Assembly: GCA_015231795.1 (NCBI GenBank)
Contig: JADGAX010000005.1
Coordinates: 126,154 to 190,153 of the forward strand
DNA: 64,000 bases
Source of the DNA: Alphaproteobacteria bacterium
Lineage (GTDB): Bacteria; Pseudomonadota; Alphaproteobacteria; Rhodospirillales; WMHbin7
Direction of reading: 5' to 3'
Shown piece after piece: positions 36,912-51,449 of the stretch (its first letter is position 1; each line of letters opens with the position of its first letter). The position numbers were made by a program, and so were the translations under genes. The notes under the pieces were generated by a model that saw only the letters and a list, made by a program, of their open reading frames with translations, made no database searches and had not been told where the DNA came from.

Positions 36912-38402
36912 CTATAAATCGAAATCGTCGCCCGCCTTGAAAGGCAGGCCTTGGCGCCAATCGGCGCGTTGCTTCTCTTGTGTCGCCAAAGATGCGCCGT
37001 TCAGGCGCACCGGTTCGCACAACAGGCATCCGGCCACCGCGTCCAGCCCGTCGTCGCGGCTTTTGCCGCCCGCCCGCCATTCGCGCATTTCGGCGACGAA
37101 GGGCGTTGCCCAGACTTGTCGATGCGCGTTCAAGGCCCCGGCGGCCAACACGGCGTCGAACGCGTCGATGATGCGGCTGTCCTTGGCCTTCTTGCTTTGC
37201 ATCTCGACCACGGCGATCTTTCTGCCCGCTCGCTTGATCTCGCGGCGCAACAGGCCGGGCAGGAATTTGCCGATGCCGTTGCCTTCCAGATGAATGGCGG
37301 GCAGATAGGCGGCGTCGGCGAATTCCAGGGCCTGGCGGCACAGTTGCGTGGCTTCGTCCGTCTCGCTGGCCATAGCCGGATCGTGCTTGAGATAGGCGAT
37401 GCGATGCAGCCAGTAGCCGCCGTCCTCATCGGTGAACAAGGCGGCGATGACGGAACTGTCGCCCTTGTCGGGTGCGCCGAAAGACGGGTCCCACCAACAA
37501 GAGGCCGAGACCAGACGCTTGCCCGCCAGCTTCAGCAACGCCTCGCCATTGCCCTCGCTATAGACCAACTCGTCTTCGTACAGACGCAGCCGGTCGGGAT
37601 CGAGTCTGCCCTCGGCGATGTTGACGGGGCGCAGCATCATCTGGCTTTCGAACTTGTTGGCCCCCGTGCGCCGCTTCAAGCTGGCGATGCGATCCAAGGG
37701 AAAGCGCTCAGGCCAGCGCGAGCGGCCCTTCTGATCCAGCACCGCCAATTCCAGGCGGACGAAGCCCTGCAGAAAGGCCTGCGTCTCGCCCGCCTCCATG
37801 CGCGGCTGGGCGGCATAGATGGTGTAATAGCTGTGCGGCGTGCCGACATAGACATGCAGCCCGCCGGGCACCAGCACGAAATCCAGCTCAAGCAGACGCT
37901 GGCGCAGGTCGGCCCGTTTGGGCGCCGAGTCCGATGTGTTGGGCACTTCGACGTCGTCGCAGATCACGATATCGGCGCGAGAGCCGGTCACGTTGGCGCC
38001 GATGCCCTTGGCCAGCATCGAGGGATCGCGCAGCTCGCTTTTTCTGGCGACCGTGAATTGATCGGCCGCCCATTGGTCGCGGTTCTTGGGCTTCAATCCC
38101 TTGGTCAGCGGATGGCGCTCGACGATGCGCTTGACGTTGCGCACCATCTTGCGGGCCAGGGCCAAGTCGGCGGCCAGCACCAGGATGCGCGTGTCGGGCT
38201 TTCTGGCCAGACGCCAAGCGCAGAACAAGCCGACCAGCGTCGATTTGCCCGAGCCGCGAAAGGCCATCAGCAGCAATTCGCGCTCGCGGCTTTTCAGCCT
38301 GGCTTCCAGCCAACCAGCGATGCGCTTGTGAAGGTCGGGCGTTCCTTGCGCCTGATGCTCGTTCCATATCCAAACAAATTCGAGGAAGCTGGCCTTGGTC
38401 AT
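36912..38402 (-). CDS. terL: Terminase large subunit
   Basis: A 496-residue packaging motor. Walker A is LLMAFRGSGKSTLVG, Walker B is DIVICDDVEV, followed by coupling motif LHVYVGTPHSYYT. The RNase H-like nuclease domain has WWDPSFGAPDKGDSSVIAAL and, near the C-terminus, SRDDGLDAVAGCLL. All expected acidic residues are in place, so it should be active. No small subunit gene is recognisable nearby. Confidence 0.95.
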   Translation of the reverse strand: MTKASFLEFVWIWNEHQAQGTPDLHKRIAGWLEARLKSRERELLLMAFRGSGKSTLVGLFCAWRLARKPDTRILVLAADLALARKMVRNVKRIVERHPLTKGLKPKNRDQWAADQFTVARKSELRDPSMLAKGIGANVTGSRADIVICDDVEVPNTSDSAPKRADLRQRLLELDFVLVPGGLHVYVGTPHSYYTIYAAQPRMEAGETQAFLQGFVRLELAVLDQKGRSRWPERFPLDRIASLKRRTGANKFESQMMLRPVNIAEGRLDPDRLRLYEDELVYSEGNGEALLKLAGKRLVSASCWWDPSFGAPDKGDSSVIAALFTDEDGGYWLHRIAYLKHDPAMASETDEATQLCRQALEFADAAYLPAIHLEGNGIGKFLPGLLRREIKRAGRKIAVVEMQSKKAKDSRIIDAFDAVLAAGALNAHRQVWATPFVAEMREWRAGGKSRDDGLDAVAGCLLCEPVRLNGASLATQEKQRADWRQGLPFKAGDDFDL

Positions 38403-38710: not shown

Positions 38711-38775
38711 CGGATCATCCTTTGCAAAGACAAAAAGAAAATCCGCCCGCCCGGTCAGGGGCAGGCGGATCATAC

Positions 38776-39270: not shown

Positions 39271-39347
39271 GAGACGATCTCCTTTCATCGAGACAATAAA
39301 AAAAGCCGGGAGAATCCCGGCTGGACATCGGCAGGACGCGTAAGGCG

Positions 39348-44391: not shown

Positions 44392-44478
44392 TGCGATGAT
44401 TCCTTCTTGTGGTTGCGCGAAAAAAAAGGCCCGCTGTGAAGCGGGCCGGTGAACGAGGTTCATTTAACTGAAGGCTTG

Positions 44479-45111
44479 CTACAGATTGCTCATGTCCAAA
44501 CCAAAGACCAGAAAATCCACTGCGAAATGGGCGATCATCACCAATCTTAACGAGCCGCTCCAGGCATAGGCCGCGCCAAAGGCAAGGCCGATGGTCGTCG
44601 TCTCCACAATGTGTCCATAGCCCATTCCCCAATGCCCAAGCCCGAACAGCAGGCTGGACATGACGACCCGCTTCCATATGGCTCCCGGCAGAACGGCCAA
44701 AGCCAAGCGCCTTGCGACAAACTCCTCGCTGACGGACACAAGGGCCAATCCCAAGGTCATGTCCAGCAGCCAAAGAACGCCATTCTCAATCGTTGGCCAG
44801 TTGAATAACCGCCATCCACTGCCAAGAAGCACCGAGATCGGCTCGCAGGCCATGGAGAAGCCAACCAAGCCAACGAACAGGGCCATCATCACAAGGGGCG
44901 AGCCTCGTCTCGGTGGCCCTGGCAGCACGTCCCTTAGAATGGGAAGCATCAGCGCCAACAAGACCGCCCGAAAGCCATAATCTGCCAGATATAGTTGATA
45001 GGTGCCGTCCAGCAGCAAGAACGCCAAGTCGTTCAGAACAAAAACGGCTACCCCCGCCGCGTAAGCAAGAAGAGGTCTTTGGCGTCTTGTCTGTGCAACG
45101 AAATCCGGCAT
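44479..45111 (-). CDS. CPBP-family intramembrane metalloprotease inside the virion operon
   Basis: A 210-residue protein with six or seven hydrophobic segments. All CPBP (Abi) active-site motifs are present: EE...R in SVSEEFVARR (Glu129, Glu130, Arg134), His160 in FGLGHWGMG, His195 in IAHFAVDFLVF. The family includes CAAX-type proteases and bacteriocin self-immunity proteins. It is not a normal structural gene; it looks like cargo inserted between decoration and tail genes. The start overlaps the stop of the previous gene. Confidence 0.88.
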   Translation of the reverse strand: MPDFVAQTRRQRPLLAYAAGVAVFVLNDLAFLLLDGTYQLYLADYGFRAVLLALMLPILRDVLPGPPRRGSPLVMMALFVGLVGFSMACEPISVLLGSGWRLFNWPTIENGVLWLLDMTLGLALVSVSEEFVARRLALAVLPGAIWKRVVMSSLLFGLGHWGMGYGHIVETTTIGLAFGAAYAWSGSLRLVMIAHFAVDFLVFGLDMSNL

Positions 45112-45115
45112 TTCC

Positions 45116-45565
45116 CTACTGCCTTGTTCCACCAGGACCGGGCGGCCTGTCCAATTCGGGGGCTTTTTTCCCGAGCCAGTCGTAGACATTGCTTCTTTGT
45201 TTCATAATCCACCCACCTGCCCGTTCGAGGGGACCTGAAGGCCCAATCTCCGGTATCGGTCGCTTGACTGGAATATCGATGGTCGGCCTTTGTTGCCCGT
45301 CATTTTGCCCTTTCTTCTCGGCGGCATTTGATGCCTGCGCCATAAGCAACCCTCGCATCAATTGGCGCCCCCTTTCGAAGGGATCCGAAGCTGATAGATC
45401 GCATTCGTTCACTTTGCTTTCTTTTCTTGGGTCATACAAGAGTTCATAACCTTCTCGCACATATTCATTCACGCGCTGATGATCGGGATGACGCTGATCC
45501 CAGTAGGCCTTGGTCCCAATTAGACGCCTAAGCGCGGCTTCATCGGGAGCTTGCGAAATTGACAT
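45116..45565 (-). CDS. Phage protein with N-terminal YW module
   Basis: A 149-residue protein. Residues 8-45 (EAALRRLIGTKAYWDQRHPD...VREGYELLYD) match the short module in the M23 peptidase and the scaffold-like protein. The rest is proline-rich and apparently disordered (TIDIPVKRPIPEIGPSGPLE). No enzyme motif. Lies between the decoration and CPBP genes. Confidence 0.75.
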   Translation of the reverse strand: MSISQAPDEAALRRLIGTKAYWDQRHPDHQRVNEYVREGYELLYDPRKESKVNECDLSASDPFERGRQLMRGLLMAQASNAAEKKGQNDGQQRPTIDIPVKRPIPEIGPSGPLERAGGWIMKQRSNVYDWLGKKAPELDRPPGPGGTRQ

Positions 45566-45643
45566 GCAGCTTTCCTTTCAAAAAGCCCGAAGGGCCGGAT
45601 GCAAGCACCCGGCCCTTCGGCAGTTGGGGAGAAGCGGTCTTCT

Positions 45644-45925: not shown

Positions 45926-46744
45926 TTAGCTTTCCAGGCAACGCATCGAAACGACGCCCGAGGCGTCGATCAGGGCGGCGCCTTGGCTCATCATGTTCGA
46001 GACGAAAAAGGCGGCACGGTCGCCGTGCCAGGTGACGTCGCTGGTCACATCCTTGCCGATGGCGTGGCCGATGGCGGTCTTGTGAAACCAGTAGCAGTAG
46101 CGCACGCTGCCCGACTTGGTCAGGCCGGAATGCGGCATCCACAAGGTTCCCAGCCACTTCTTGGCCTGGGTGCCCTGCCAGGGAAGATCCTCGCCGCCAA
46201 CGTAATCGGCGTTCGAGAATTCTTCGATGGCCAGAAGGTCGCTCCACTGCTTCCAACCGACCACGGCGTAACGCTCGCCGTCGTCGGGCACATCGGAAGC
46301 CCCCAGCATTTCGAAGGCTTCCAGCACCTTCGCCTTGGTCAGCGCCGTCGTGCCGTCCTGGGCGTAATTGGTGCTGACGTCGAGCTGTGCGATGATCAGC
46401 TCATCCGACTTGCGGCCCAGCGCGTAGGCGCCCGCCTTGACCAGCACTTCCTTTTCCTTGGTGTTGGTCTTCAATTCGTCCAGATGGTCCAGCCAGTCGC
46501 CCGCATAATAGTCGTACAACTGGCATTCCACCTGACCGTGGTCGATGTTCATCACCGGCACATGGGCGTGACGCGCCTTGGTCGAGGCGATGCCCTTGCC
46601 CACCTTGGGAAAGACGCAAGACGAGCCGACGACGCTGTTCTTGCTGCGCACGGTGTTGCGAAGTTTCGATCCCATCAGCTGATAGGCGTTGTGGACCTCG
46701 GCTTCGTACTGTTTGACGTAACTGGATTCGATGTTGTTGCTCAT
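45926..46744 (-). CDS. Major capsid protein
   Basis: A 272-residue protein: SYVKQYEAEVHNAYQLMGSK, FPKVGKGIASTKARHAHVPV, YYAGDWLDHLDELKTNTKEK, YAVVGWKQWSDLLAIEEFSN. These are marks of an HK97-fold capsid family typical of small podoviruses. Length is short but normal for the group. Placed between scaffold-like and decoration genes. Confidence 0.85.
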   Translation of the reverse strand: MSNNIESSYVKQYEAEVHNAYQLMGSKLRNTVRSKNSVVGSSCVFPKVGKGIASTKARHAHVPVMNIDHGQVECQLYDYYAGDWLDHLDELKTNTKEKEVLVKAGAYALGRKSDELIIAQLDVSTNYAQDGTTALTKAKVLEAFEMLGASDVPDDGERYAVVGWKQWSDLLAIEEFSNADYVGGEDLPWQGTQAKKWLGTLWMPHSGLTKSGSVRYCYWFHKTAIGHAIGKDVTSDVTWHGDRAAFFVSNMMSQGAALIDASGVVSMRCLES

Positions 46745-47579: not shown

Positions 47580-47831
47580 TCAGTTCTCCTCGGTTTCGAT
47601 GTCGAATGGCTGGCCCTCGCGGCCGCGGCGCACGAGAGACAGGATGTGGTTGACCAAGTGACGCTGGCCTTCCAGATGGCGCAGTTGGGCGATGCTGGAT
47701 TCGGGACCCAGATGTCGCTCCAGCGTGACCGCCTTCAGATGAGCAAGCGCTCTTGCGCCGTCGTCGCCGCGAAATGTCCTGGCGAACGTGCGGGCAAGAT
47801 CGGGGTGGCCGGTTCCGGGGCGATCGGTCAT
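47580..47831 (-). CDS. Bbp19-like phage protein
   Basis: An 83-residue protein: FARTFRGDDGARALAHLKAV, IAQLRHLEGQRHLVNHILSL and VRRG. This matches the small Bbp19 family of Bordetella phage BPP-1 and relatives, found after portal genes. Function unknown. Overlaps the portal gene by 4 bp (ATGA). Confidence 0.88.
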   Translation of the reverse strand: MTDRPGTGHPDLARTFARTFRGDDGARALAHLKAVTLERHLGPESSIAQLRHLEGQRHLVNHILSLVRRGREGQPFDIETEEN

Positions 47832-49402
47832 GGCACCCCTCCCTGAACCGGCCTGGCGTCGCTGGGCTGGGGTGCGACCGCGCCTTGCGCCATCCCGGTG
47901 ATCAGGGAGGTCAGGGCAGGATCGACGCCCGGCGAGGCGGGAGCGGCGCGCAACAGCTCGGCAGGCACGTTCAGCGCCTTGGCGAGCCAACGGGCGGCCG
48001 CTCCTAGATCGACGACTTGATTGGCTGGCGGCCCGAACGACATGACGGCGGTCAGCCATTGCAACGTATTCTTCGCATCCTCGCGCCCGCGTTCGTTGGC
48101 GAGCGGCGATTTGTAGATCAGCTCGATCTGATGGCCGTCGATGGACAGGCCGGGGATTTCGCCGCGCCGCTTCAAGATGGCGACGGCGCGCATCACCAAG
48201 GGCGTCAGCAATTCCGATTGCAAGCGTCCATAGGTGGCGCCCAACAGGCGCGCCATTTCCGCCGATCGTTCAAGCACCTCGGTCGCGGTCATGTTGGGCG
48301 CGTCGATCTGTCCCAGCCGGTCGGCCAACAAGGCGTGCGAAATGCGCTGGCGCAAATCGGTCAGCATCAGTTGCGAAATGTCGAAACGACCCGGCGTTTC
48401 CAAGGGCGTCAGGCCAGCCGACCCCACCGCCTTGGGAATGATCGTGCCCGGCACCAGCTTGATGTTGGCCGGATTGAGCACGCCGTCGTCATCGGCCTGC
48501 CAAATGCCGGTGACGGCGATGGTGGCGTTCTTCAGCACCAGTTCGACGACCTTGTTGGCGGTCTTGATGTCGGGCAGGCTTTTCATGACCGGCGAGCGGC
48601 CATAGACCTCGCCCGGCGCCTTCAGCCAGCGAAAATTGATGAAGGGCGACATGTCGAACCGCCCTTCGGCCAAGGTCGCGGCTCCGCCTGTCCCCTCGCC
48701 GTCCAGAATGGCGTGATAGGCGTAGCCGTGCCGTTCGGGCAGCACGGCTTCGACCACCTTGAAGCGCGCATCGGCGGCGTCCTTGCTTTTGCGGTCCATG
48801 CTTTCGGGCAATTGCGCCTTCGGAAATCGCTCGCGGATGGCGCTGATCGTCATCTCGCTCGAGCGGAAGGTGGTGTCGAGCCTGCCTTCCACGCTTTCCT
48901 CAAGTGCTAACTGCGCCAAGGGAATGGCGGTAAAGCGAAAGGCCGAGGCCGACCCCAGCGGCGCTTCCTCGAACAAAAGCGACGCCGTGCCCGCCGTGAC
49001 CAGATCGAGATAGCACTGATGCATTTCGATGGCGAAGTTCGACCGGTCGAAATGGCTTTGCAGGGCCGCTCCCGCCTTTTCAAGAACCGGGGCGGCGACT
49101 TCACGCTCTTCGGGCGTCAGGTCGGGACCAGCCGCCAGGCCGAACCATTGCGCCCAGGGCGGCGTCAGCTGCGCCAGCAGGCTGGCCGCCAACTGATCGA
49201 CGCAATCGGGCGCCGTGCCGTCGAACAGTCGGTCAGTGCGCTTGGCGCCGGGCTGCGACGACAGCAAGGGGCCGCCGCGCGACGGCAGCGCATAATCGTA
49301 ACATTCCTGCCAATGGCCTTCCCAAACATTGCGCCGCTCTTTGGCCTTTTCGAATCGCTTCAGCACGACGCGCTGCGCTTCGGGGTCATTCTGTTCGTTC
49401 AT
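47828..49402 (-). CDS. Portal (head-tail connector) protein
   Basis: A 524-residue protein of the T7 gp8-like connector family: RRNVWEGHWQECYDYALPSR, RTDRLFDGTAPDCVDQLAAS, LAQLTPPWAQWFGL, NFRWLKAPGEVYGRSPVMKS, RISHALLADRLGQIDAPNMT. It forms the dodecameric DNA gate of the head. The C-terminus is proline/glutamine-rich. Confidence 0.92.
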   Translation of the reverse strand: MNEQNDPEAQRVVLKRFEKAKERRNVWEGHWQECYDYALPSRGGPLLSSQPGAKRTDRLFDGTAPDCVDQLAASLLAQLTPPWAQWFGLAAGPDLTPEEREVAAPVLEKAGAALQSHFDRSNFAIEMHQCYLDLVTAGTASLLFEEAPLGSASAFRFTAIPLAQLALEESVEGRLDTTFRSSEMTISAIRERFPKAQLPESMDRKSKDAADARFKVVEAVLPERHGYAYHAILDGEGTGGAATLAEGRFDMSPFINFRWLKAPGEVYGRSPVMKSLPDIKTANKVVELVLKNATIAVTGIWQADDDGVLNPANIKLVPGTIIPKAVGSAGLTPLETPGRFDISQLMLTDLRQRISHALLADRLGQIDAPNMTATEVLERSAEMARLLGATYGRLQSELLTPLVMRAVAILKRRGEIPGLSIDGHQIELIYKSPLANERGREDAKNTLQWLTAVMSFGPPANQVVDLGAAARWLAKALNVPAELLRAAPASPGVDPALTSLITGMAQGAVAPQPSDARPVQGGVP

Positions 49403-49406
49403 GGTC

Positions 49407-49649
49407 TTATTCTCCCAATAGCGTTTTGCGAGCGCCCTCGCCGGGTGCGGGGGCCAGCACGCCGCGGCTGGAGGTGGCGATGGTGCCCGACAAGCCGGCC
49501 CGGTTGCGGGCCACGGCGGCCAAGCGCGCCTTGCGCTCGTCGTCGGCCGTGTTGTCGGCGACCGGGGCGGGCGTAACCGGCGGCAAGACGACCGGCGGCG
49601 GCGGCGGCGGCGGGGACGGCGGCAAGAAAATGCTCATGAAACCACCCAT
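49407..49649 (-). CDS. Small proline-rich virion protein
   Basis: An 80-residue protein with a polyproline stretch (IFLPPSPPPPPPPVVLPPV), an ERKARLAAVARNRAGLSGTI segment, and the ending RKTLLGE. Proteins with a '..p.p...A.r.r.G.a.til.g..G......KtLLG' pattern lie upstream of many podovirus portal genes. First gene of the late operon; AGGAG precedes the ATG at 49649. Confidence 0.8.
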   Translation of the reverse strand: MGGFMSIFLPPSPPPPPPPVVLPPVTPAPVADNTADDERKARLAAVARNRAGLSGTIATSSRGVLAPAPGEGARKTLLGE

Positions 49650-49690
49650 GACGAACTCCTTTGCTGTCGGCGCAGAGCGCCAGTGAAATG

Positions 49691-49720
49691 AAAAACCCCG
49701 CCGGATGGATTCCGGCGGGG
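49691..49720 (-). terminator. Leftward terminator just before the virion operon
   Basis: A 9-bp perfect stem (49696-49704 with 49712-49720) followed on the minus strand by five T. It ends 42 bp before the first late gene. Confidence 0.8.
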
Positions 49721-49739
49721 CTGGCATGCCAAGGACCTG

Positions 49740-49783
49740 AAAACCGAAAGGGGCCGTCCGCGAATGCGAACGGCCCCTTTCGG
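49740..49783 (-). terminator. Second hairpin in the late leader
   Basis: A 14-bp perfect inverted repeat (49744-49757 with 49770-49783) followed on the minus strand by TTTT. It lies between the late promoter and the first virion gene and could work as a terminator. Confidence 0.65.
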
Positions 49784-49867
49784 GAAACCTCTCCCTCTTC
49801 TGGTCAGCAGCGCCTCCTCCGAGGCTTATGATCCGCTGCGGTCGCAGTAAGGGCGGTAATGAGGCAG

Positions 49868-49896
49868 TATATACTCCGCATTTTTTGCGTCGTCAA
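49868..49896 (-). promoter_or_regulatory. Late-type promoter of the virion operon
   Basis: On the minus strand: -35 TTGACG (49896-49891), 17-bp spacer, -10 TATATA (49873-49868). The transcript would start near 49861 and run through a ~210-nt leader holding two terminator hairpins. Confidence 0.65.
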
Positions 49897-49910: not shown

Positions 49911-50321
49911 TTATAGGAACTTTTTTTGTTGGCGGCTGGCCGACGTCAAGCGGCGGTATAATTGCCAGGGCGTCAGCACCCATCCCGCCTTCAGCCCAAG
50001 CACGCGCTTGACCGCTTCGACGCAGCTATAGGGCCGCCATGGCGCGGCGGCGGGCTGCGGAGCGTCGATATCCGCCGGAATCAATCGGCACCCTTCCTCG
50101 CTGAAAACATCGAGCAGTTCGTAACCGACCTCGACCAGATCGATGCGCGTATGATGAGAAAGCGGATCGTAAACCACCCACTGCCCGCCTTTGCGCAACA
50201 GCAAGAAGCAATGGCGAAATCCCGGCTTCAACAGCTTAAGCCAGGCCAGCCCCGTATTGTTGCGAAAACCCACCCAGGCTTCGTCGTACGTGCTGTCATA
50301 TAAGGCGTTTTTGCCTGTCAC
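49911..50321 (-). CDS. Conserved phage protein with His-Cys motif
   Basis: A 136-residue protein: DEAWVGFRNNTGLAWLKLLK, PGFRHCFLLLRKGGQWVVYD, PLSHHTRIDLVEVGYELLDV. The buried FRHC and YDPLSH pieces hint at a papain-like fold, but no such activity is shown. GTG start overlaps the stop of the upstream gene (GTGA). It sits between the repressor region and the late promoter. Confidence 0.7.
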   Translation of the reverse strand: MTGKNALYDSTYDEAWVGFRNNTGLAWLKLLKPGFRHCFLLLRKGGQWVVYDPLSHHTRIDLVEVGYELLDVFSEEGCRLIPADIDAPQPAAAPWRPYSCVEAVKRVLGLKAGWVLTPWQLYRRLTSASRQQKKFL

Positions 50322-50686
50322 AGCACGATTCCCTTGGCCTTCAGCACGGGGTGCAGACGCAGCATCGCCTCCTCCCAGCAACGGGCGGCGGCGCGTTCAT
50401 CGACACGACCTTCCAGGGGCGGCGCCAGGCGCAAGCCGTAATCGCCCAGAACCACCAGATGGCGACGATCAAGCTCCCTGGCCTTGTAGAGCCGATCGAC
50501 CACCGCGAAGACGTCGTCGGGGTCGCACGGCCTGGGAACGCTGGCGTTGTCGGTCGAACGAAACTTGGCCCCTTCGAGTCTGGCGATCTGAGAACGGCAG
50601 TACCAGAACCATGCCTCCTCGGCTGTTTCGAAGGGCTGGGTTAGCGGCTCCGCCAGCGGTTTTGGCACGTATCGATAGAACGACAT
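50318..50686 (-). CDS. Conserved alphaproteobacterial protein next to the S24 regulator
   Basis: A 122-residue protein: TAEEAWFWYCRSQIARLEGA, VPRPCDPDDVFAVVDRLYKA, RHLVVLGDYGLRLAPP, ARCWEEAMLRLHPVLKAKGI. Similar proteins are common in alphaproteobacteria near phage or S24-regulator genes; function unknown. It is the first gene leftward from the divergent operator region, so it is an early gene. A role in late-gene control is possible but not shown. ATG at 50686 follows GGAGA. Confidence 0.75.
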   Translation of the reverse strand: MSFYRYVPKPLAEPLTQPFETAEEAWFWYCRSQIARLEGAKFRSTDNASVPRPCDPDDVFAVVDRLYKARELDRRHLVVLGDYGLRLAPPLEGRVDERAAARCWEEAMLRLHPVLKAKGIVL

Positions 50687-50703
50687 GCAAGTCTCCATCA
50701 CGT

Positions 50704-50769
50704 ACATTGTGGGAACATTGTCAAAACATGGTGGGCGCTTGACGTCAAGGGGAAAATTGACTATGTTCC
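50704..50769. promoter_or_regulatory. Divergent operator region of the S24 regulator
   Basis: The rightward promoter is TTGACG (50739-50744), 17 bp, TATGTT (50762-50767). Candidate operator units: direct repeat ACATTGT (50704-50710, 50715-50721) and an inverted pair GGAACAT (50712-50718) / ATGTTCC (50763-50769), the latter lying on the -10 box. A leftward TTGACA (50724-50719) overlaps the other end, though its -10 is unclear. Autorepression of the regulator and control of the leftward genes are inferred. Confidence 0.55.
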
Positions 50770-50816: not shown

Positions 50817-51449
50817 ATGCTGCGTCACGCCGATATATGGCATGCCATCGACCGTCTGGCTTTCAAGCACGGGCTGACGGCGTCCGGTCTTGCCCGCAAG
50901 GCGGGGCTTGATCCCACCACCTTCAACAAGAGCAAGCGCACCAGCCCCGAAGGCAAATTGCGCTGGCCTTCGACGGAAAGCGTGGCCAAGGTCTTGACCG
51001 CCACCGGCGCCTCGATCGCGGAATTCGTCACCATGATCGACAATCCCGACGAGACGGGCGCGGTGCAGCGCATTCCGCTGATCGGACTGGCTCAGGCCGG
51101 TTCCGACGGCTATTTCGACGATGCGGGCTACCCCACCGGCGCCGGCTGGGATGAAATCCCTTTCCCGGAAATGGGCGACAGCAAGGCCTATGCGCTGGAG
51201 ATCACCGGCGATTCGATGGAACCGCTTTATCGCGAGGGCGACATCGTCATCGTCTCGCCCGCCGCCCAGATCCGCCGCGCCGACCGCGTGATCGTGAAAA
51301 CCAACGATGGCGAGGTGATGGTCAAGCAGCTTTTGCGCCGCACCGCCAAATTCGTCGATCTGCAATCCTTGAACGATCAGCATCCCAACCGGTCCTTGCC
51401 GATCGAAGAGGTGGCGCTGATCCATCGCGTGGTCTGGGCCAGCCAGTAA
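50817..51449 (+). CDS. LexA-like S24 peptidase transcriptional regulator
   Basis: A 210-residue regulator. The HTH is LTASGLARKAGLDPTTFNKS (residues 20-39). The C-terminal self-cleavage domain has the scissile Ala94-Gly95 in LAQAGSDG, Ser133 in TGDSMEPLY and Lys170 in GEVMVKQLL, all the residues needed for RecA-induced cleavage. Such a protein could release the adjacent leftward genes after DNA damage. Similar regulators are also kept as core genes in many Rhodospirillales, so control of the phage cluster is inferred from position. Confidence 0.9.
   Translation: MLRHADIWHAIDRLAFKHGLTASGLARKAGLDPTTFNKSKRTSPEGKLRWPSTESVAKVLTATGASIAEFVTMIDNPDETGAVQRIPLIGLAQAGSDGYFDDAGYPTGAGWDEIPFPEMGDSKAYALEITGDSMEPLYREGDIVIVSPAAQIRRADRVIVKTNDGEVMVKQLLRRTAKFVDLQSLNDQHPNRSLPIEEVALIHRVVWASQ

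Follow-up and report, generated by a model that had tools for sequence, protein, structure and literature searches.

The virion gene cluster and its leader

The window, by which we mean the whole 64,000-nt stretch of DNA that was analysed, comes from a genome of 3.6 Mb that shares its genus with Rhodospirillaceae bacterium LM-1, and the whole analysis was computational (sequence comparison and predicted folds). The minus strand carries a compact T7-type virion gene cluster that runs from ~51.4 to 36.9 kb (~14.5 kb) and encodes a portal (PF12236), scaffold (PF05396), capsid (PF19821), tail tube proteins, an internal virion protein, a tail fibre and terminase. Among the proteins scanned, in a scan that was not exhaustive and with some genes maybe unlinked, no integrase, polymerase or replication gene was recognised. 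Upstream of the virion genes lie a divergent S24-type repressor and two small genes, smallA (50318-50686) and smallB (49911-50321). The features of the operon and its leader are as follows.

49868-49896, minus: late promoter TTGACG-17-TATATA (from the sequence; conserved among relatives)
49840-49857, minus: start-proximal element ACCGCCCTTACTGCGACC, 18 nt, with TGYG (conserved; putative pause at ~+17)
49812-49857, minus: genus-level conserved leader block ending in GCCTCGGAGGAGGC (six same-genus leaders)
49744-49783, minus: leader hairpin 1 with TTTT (14 perfect pairs by strict count, 12-nt loop, then TTTTC)
49691-49720, minus: leader hairpin 2 with TTTTT, a canonical intrinsic terminator (10-12 pairs, 49720-49696, then TTTTTC)
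49407-49649, minus: first virion-operon gene, Pro-rich, 80 aa (phrog_831)
47828-49402, minus: T7-type portal (PF12236, E 2.7e-144)
45926-46744, minus: major capsid protein (PF19821, E 1.1e-83)
45587-45620, minus: internal terminator, 15 pairs (terminator scan)
44428-44447, minus: internal terminator, 8 pairs, T8 (terminator scan)
39304-39322, minus: internal terminator after the tail fibre gene (terminator scan)
38741-38770, minus: internal terminator before the terminase genes (terminator scan)
36912-38402, minus: terminase large subunit (phrog_38, E 7e-80)

The promoter has its -35 TTGACG at 49896-49891 and its -10 TATATA at 49873-49868 (minus strand), separated by a 17-nt spacer, and is followed by a gene-free leader of ~210 nt before the next gene starts at the ATG at 49649. 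The first-pass annotation had proposed a minus-strand promoter and a leader of this length in which two strong hairpin terminators precede the virion genes, and all of these are present where it placed them; of the lambda pR'-like design that it saw in them, the late promoter with its terminated leader holds, while the virion genes are T7-type rather than lambda-like and the cluster as a whole is probably domesticated. The promoter alone is unremarkable (9/12 consensus matches), and promoters of that quality occur at chance level in the scanned region (3 observed, 3.4 expected), the late promoter itself being absent from that scan's list for want of the final T in TATATA. TTGAC and the TATA within the -10 do not vary among the six same-genus leaders.

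Hairpins with at least 9 perfect pairs and T4 occur only four times on both strands of the 64-kb window, and two of these are the leader hairpins; the same criterion finds zero in 20 dinucleotide shuffles. The leader hairpins are not chance. The leader folds at -106.6 kcal/mol (z -5.8), and both hairpins are present in the six same-genus leaders. A few compensatory changes are seen in hairpin 1 among members of the genus. Its T-run is weak except in the window and in LM-1, which leaves hairpin 2 as the more canonical of the two terminators. When the genus leaders are run through RNAalifold, five pairs show double changes, in a consensus that mixes in promoter columns, and we therefore claim only hairpin 1 as covarying. 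Within the window's genus the element may also pair with a downstream AAGGGAUxGGU stretch (49857-49785, minus); the apparent covariation comes from single-sequence folds, for which six sequences are too few.

Six strong terminators, two in the leader and four internal, lie on the operon strand of the window's cluster and zero on the opposite strand, and nine clusters pooled give 27 on the operon strand vs 4 on the other. A second copy of the element was not found within the window, so the tail and terminase genes would be reached by read-through unless there are unseen promoters. A small cassette within the operon (44479-45565, minus) encodes a CAAX Rce1-like protease (PF02517) and an unknown 149-aa gene, and is bounded by two of the strong terminators (45620-45587 and 44447-44428), as if it were an inserted moron.

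Recurrence of the promoter element

Relatives of smallB were found in 62/100 genomes searched (35/61 genera), mostly in single copy, and on 55 viral contigs, many of them ~18 kb long. Relatives of the cluster occur in Magnetospirillum, Terasakiella, Thalassospira, Haematospirillum and others. The usual order of the locus is repressor, smallA, smallB, leader, Pro-rich gene, portal, and the arrangement of promoter, element and leader recurs in relatives from many families across Rhodospirillales. In Micavibrionales and Azospirillum-like loci smallB is joined directly to the virion genes with no leader in between; as these comparisons have it, the leader belongs to a large part of the family and not to all of it.

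When the relatives are anchored on the -35, the pattern consists of an AT-rich box, TTGAC, 17-18 nt, a TATA-like -10, the 18-nt TGYG element and then, usually, a terminator. The distance from TTGAC to TGYG is 49-52 nt in 33/35 rows and TGYG is conserved in 33-37 of 37 rows per position, counts that the anchoring itself favours and that are outweighed by the independent support. TGYG falls at about +15 to +18, assuming a start 7-8 nt past the -10. The consensus elemental pause carries TGYG with G at -11/-10, and the G-11 of that consensus is found in 27/37 rows. The AT-rich box GAAAAAAnTCC, immediately 5' of the -35, is also conserved; the -35/-10 spacer is not. A GGAC/GTCC pairing inside the element is seen in many rows and broken in others, and a conserved hairpin there was rejected on this ground; sequence rather than structure seems to be kept.

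By strict criteria, 41/71 leaders have a terminator within 140 nt (shuffles, 3.7%; opposite-strand control, 1/71) and about 30/71 have none, the window's clade being missed by the 140-nt limit as its hairpins sit further downstream. Where the virion operon is located elsewhere in the genome, the promoter and element are found with the operon in 4/5 such genomes. In G039, G007, G048 and G061, repressor, smallA and smallB lie apart from the portal, and it is the portal operon that carries the element (L089, L090, L092, L093); no copy was found after smallB in these four. G072 has copies at both the smallB and the portal sites, and G094 has no visible element directly 5' of the portal and three copies ~20 kb off, before other genes. 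In the split genomes a terminator accompanies the element at the virion operon.

An element model, which is sequence-only and was built partly from genomes that were also searched, scores the window's leader at 39 bits and finds two more good matches in its own genome, at 33.6 and 24.9 bits, the latter 5' of a 487-aa unknown protein with a hairpin in between. Seven genomes (G039, G056, G089, G013, G068, G007 and G060) have copies 5' of the major capsid gene; other copies stand before genes for secreted or unknown proteins, and Thalassospira has one in front of smallA. Directly 3' of most copies that precede capsid or other genes there is no terminator. Among genomes outside the model, an element match at E<=1e-4 occurs in 21/37 with smallB vs 1/38 without. 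Because further copies precede capsid genes, the element-bearing promoters form a regulon, as read from their sequences.

Three of the copies have settings of their own. The 33.6-bit copy (L133 2655-2725; C12:48654-48724 of the window's own genome) follows a dehydrogenase gene and comes with a short hairpin plus T-run; it has no clear target gene, and a secreted-protein gene runs towards it from the other side. In G072 (L147 2504-4052) tandem duplicated cassettes each have their own element before a secreted protein (AETTIQKVPPCAPVYGTW...), and in G004 (L077 1171-1478) two tandem copies of promoter and element stand in one leader before the portal operon.

The alternative that fares best against antitermination, and that we nevertheless hold to be unlikely, is that the element is an activator site controlling initiation: the hairpins would only end smallA-smallB transcription or insulate, and the late genes would be switched at the promoter. 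The hairpins do lie directly after smallB and could end its transcript, several element copies lack a downstream terminator, and a conserved AT-rich box just 5' of the -35 is what one would expect of an activator site. However, the hairpins come after the promoter, the conserved part falls past the transcription start, which is unusual for an activator site, and with a good -35 and -10 no activator is obviously needed. The split genomes keep a terminator with the element at the virion operon, although it has no smallB transcript to stop there, and four more terminators follow further along the operon.

The upstream genes and their control

The features between the leader and the repressor are as follows.

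49911-50321, minus: smallB, 136 aa, possible papain-like hydrolase of the virion or lysis set (motifs, weak fold match)
50318-50686, minus: smallA, 122 aa, candidate antiterminator with Q21-like predicted fold (AF2, pLDDT 84)
50702-50716, minus: LexA-box-like site GTTCCCACAATGTAC upstream of smallA (one mismatch to GTTCN7GTTC)
50712-50724, minus: TTGACAATGTTCC, inverted second copy (the other is at 50757-50769)
50757-50769, minus: GGAACATAGTCAA, one of two inverted copies, possible repressor operator (conserved in the genus only)
50817-51449, plus: divergent repressor gene, S24/LexA-type with HTH and Peptidase_S24 (PF00717, E 2e-22; phrog_4 repressor)

In most relatives the repressor gene and smallA point away from each other. 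GTTCN7GTTC, which has been described as the LexA motif of Caulobacter (PMC12700426), occurs without mismatch in 62/99 of the relatives' repressor-smallA gaps vs 0.25% of shuffles, so that these smallA promoters carry an alphaproteobacterial SOS (LexA) box; the window has a near-box with one mismatch, which is also found in its genus. Two inverted copies of GGAACATNGTCAA between the repressor and smallA (50712-50769, minus), kept in part of the genus, are possibly repressor operators. The S24 domain of the repressor would also fit damage-induced cleavage.

The AF2 model of SmallA is all helical. Foldseek against the PDB places Q21 chains at ranks 1-4 (E 0.26-0.82, below formal significance) and VIA places Q21 entries at ranks 1-5 (Z 6.3-7.6; the next row is at 5.0), scores of a kind reachable by chance for helical proteins. 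The fold nearest to SmallA in the PDB is thus that of the antiterminator Q21, a match that is suggestive and not significant and that gains weight from the genetic setting. The sequence has no convincing match in Pfam, PHROG or PDB, its profile does not match four PF06530 proteins, a comparison with 50,697 phage records gives no significant match, and a BFVD fold search returns no named Q protein (best E 0.39). On the best reading, SmallA may be a member of an undescribed antiterminator family.

SmallB has two invariant motifs, RHCF and a TCVE-type motif (CVEAVKR-like), and its model gives a weak VIA match to the cysteine peptidase 3kw0 (Z 5.8); a fold search gives no significant match, and a search of its sequence against Pfam, PHROGs and PDB gives nothing convincing. 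That SmallB is the loading factor, alone or jointly with SmallA as in GafY and GafZ, is improbable in our estimate. As such a pair might, the two genes almost always lie side by side, and in the window they overlap; however, smallB adjoins the portal in four viral contigs (L052-L055) in which no smallA match was found, and also in Vibrio phages, and its model has no regulator-like match. As an activator SmallB is disfavoured by these occurrences and is probably not one; because it adjoins the portal where no smallA relative was found, a place in the virion or lysis set is more likely.

The weakest alternative, an RNA device in which the conserved segment acts in the transcript (as an attenuator, a put-like RNA or a trans-acting small RNA) with no dedicated protein, might draw on the strong fold of the leader and on its highly conserved transcribed block with some compensatory changes within the genus, but it is very improbable, since across families only a short motif at a fixed promoter distance is kept, the GGAC/GTCC pairing is lost in many rows, an Rfam search of the window gives only a tRNA, and several capsid copies lack the terminator that a small RNA would need.

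The first-pass annotation had also argued that the operon should need read-through of its leader and had named both small genes as candidates for the activator. The former is supported, as far as sequences can support it, by the conserved element and terminator, the split genomes, the capsid copies, the internal terminators and the Q21-like fold; of the two genes, smallA stands as the candidate and smallB probably falls away.

Inheritance of the cluster and a proposed antitermination circuit

Distances for the portal and the repressor track those for RpoB (r 0.59 and 0.41, p 2e-4), where the portal value excludes LM-1 and falls to r 0.20 with it, because the LM-1 portal match is short and divergent in its record. 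Several clades recur with good support in the portal, repressor and RpoB trees; smallA distances do not follow RpoB. The vertical inheritance expected of a gene transfer agent (GTA) is thus found for portal and repressor, mostly with one copy per genome, and for this reason the cluster looks like a domesticated GTA-like element, not a roaming prophage. Alphaproteobacterial GTAs have two recognised lineages, both HK97-type (PMC9662315). The cluster shares with these types I and II its size, mostly single copy, evolution with the host and, among the proteins scanned, the lack of a recognised replication or integration gene (PMC9662315); they have HK97-type capsids, whereas the window's cluster, known here from its genes alone, has a T7-type portal, scaffold, capsid and tail.

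We take the leader to be the antitermination control point of the virion operon in a largely vertical T7-type GTA-like element, switched by an SOS-triggered processive circuit in the style of Q and AlpA with SmallA as its factor, and put this at about two chances in three. RNA polymerase would start near 49860, pause at the TGYG element ~17 nt on and then normally stop at the leader terminators. Upon DNA damage the smallA-smallB operon would be derepressed, through LexA and/or the divergent S24 repressor, and SmallA would load onto the paused polymerase at the late promoter. The loaded polymerase would then read through the two leader and four internal terminators, and other operons with the same promoter element would be switched on together. 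The promoter, element, terminators, regulon copies, synteny, SOS-type boxes and largely vertical inheritance are seen in the sequences; the pause, the loading of SmallA, induction by SOS and a particle function are what we infer.

With such a circuit, the Q switch of phage lambda would gain a new relative. As in the Q systems of phage 21 and lambda at pR', a sigma70-type promoter, a start-proximal pause-like sequence and a leader terminator precede a late virion operon, and the candidate small protein has a predicted fold like that of phage 21 Q. The lambda Q site lies in the -35/-10 spacer, whereas here the spacer is not conserved and the conserved DNA is found past the start and immediately before the -35; the element is common to several operons, and SmallA has no sequence similarity to the PF06530 members compared.

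Among described controls, GafYZ of the Caulobacter GTA (PMC11150451) and AlpA (PMC7969949) come nearest, both likened by description. AlpA of Pseudomonas aeruginosa is a damage-linked antiterminator with promoters followed by intrinsic terminators and more than one target operon; unlike the system in the window, its binding element lies between -35 and -10 and it controls lysis genes (PMC7969949). In Caulobacter the repressor RogA controls a two-gene operon, gafY and gafZ; this operon activates scattered genes along with a particle cluster of ~14 kb, which has a terminator near its start (PMC11150451). That cluster is HK97-type, unlike the T7-type cluster here, and GafY needs IHF and a degenerate -35, whereas the -35 here is good; GafZ is reported to have no similarity to known antiterminators (PMC11150451). 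We found no literature report of podovirus-type GTAs or of this element in Rhodospirillales, most subscription papers being outside the search's reach.

A wider reading, which we offer tentatively and rate at somewhat below even odds, is that of a third alphaproteobacterial GTA lineage, derived from a T7-type podovirus, vertical in Rhodospirillales and Micavibrionales, and triggered by the SOS response via a new Q21-like antiterminator family that serves a scattered regulon with one start-proximal pause element. The conserved pause-like motif at ~+17 in divergent genomes is a natural data set for antiterminator loading, and the common element allows the regulon to be listed by sequence alone. 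The circuit gives a testable switch for a phage-derived particle cluster carried by many Rhodospirillales, and a third, T7-type GTA lineage, if true, would alter the estimated frequency of such gene exchange.
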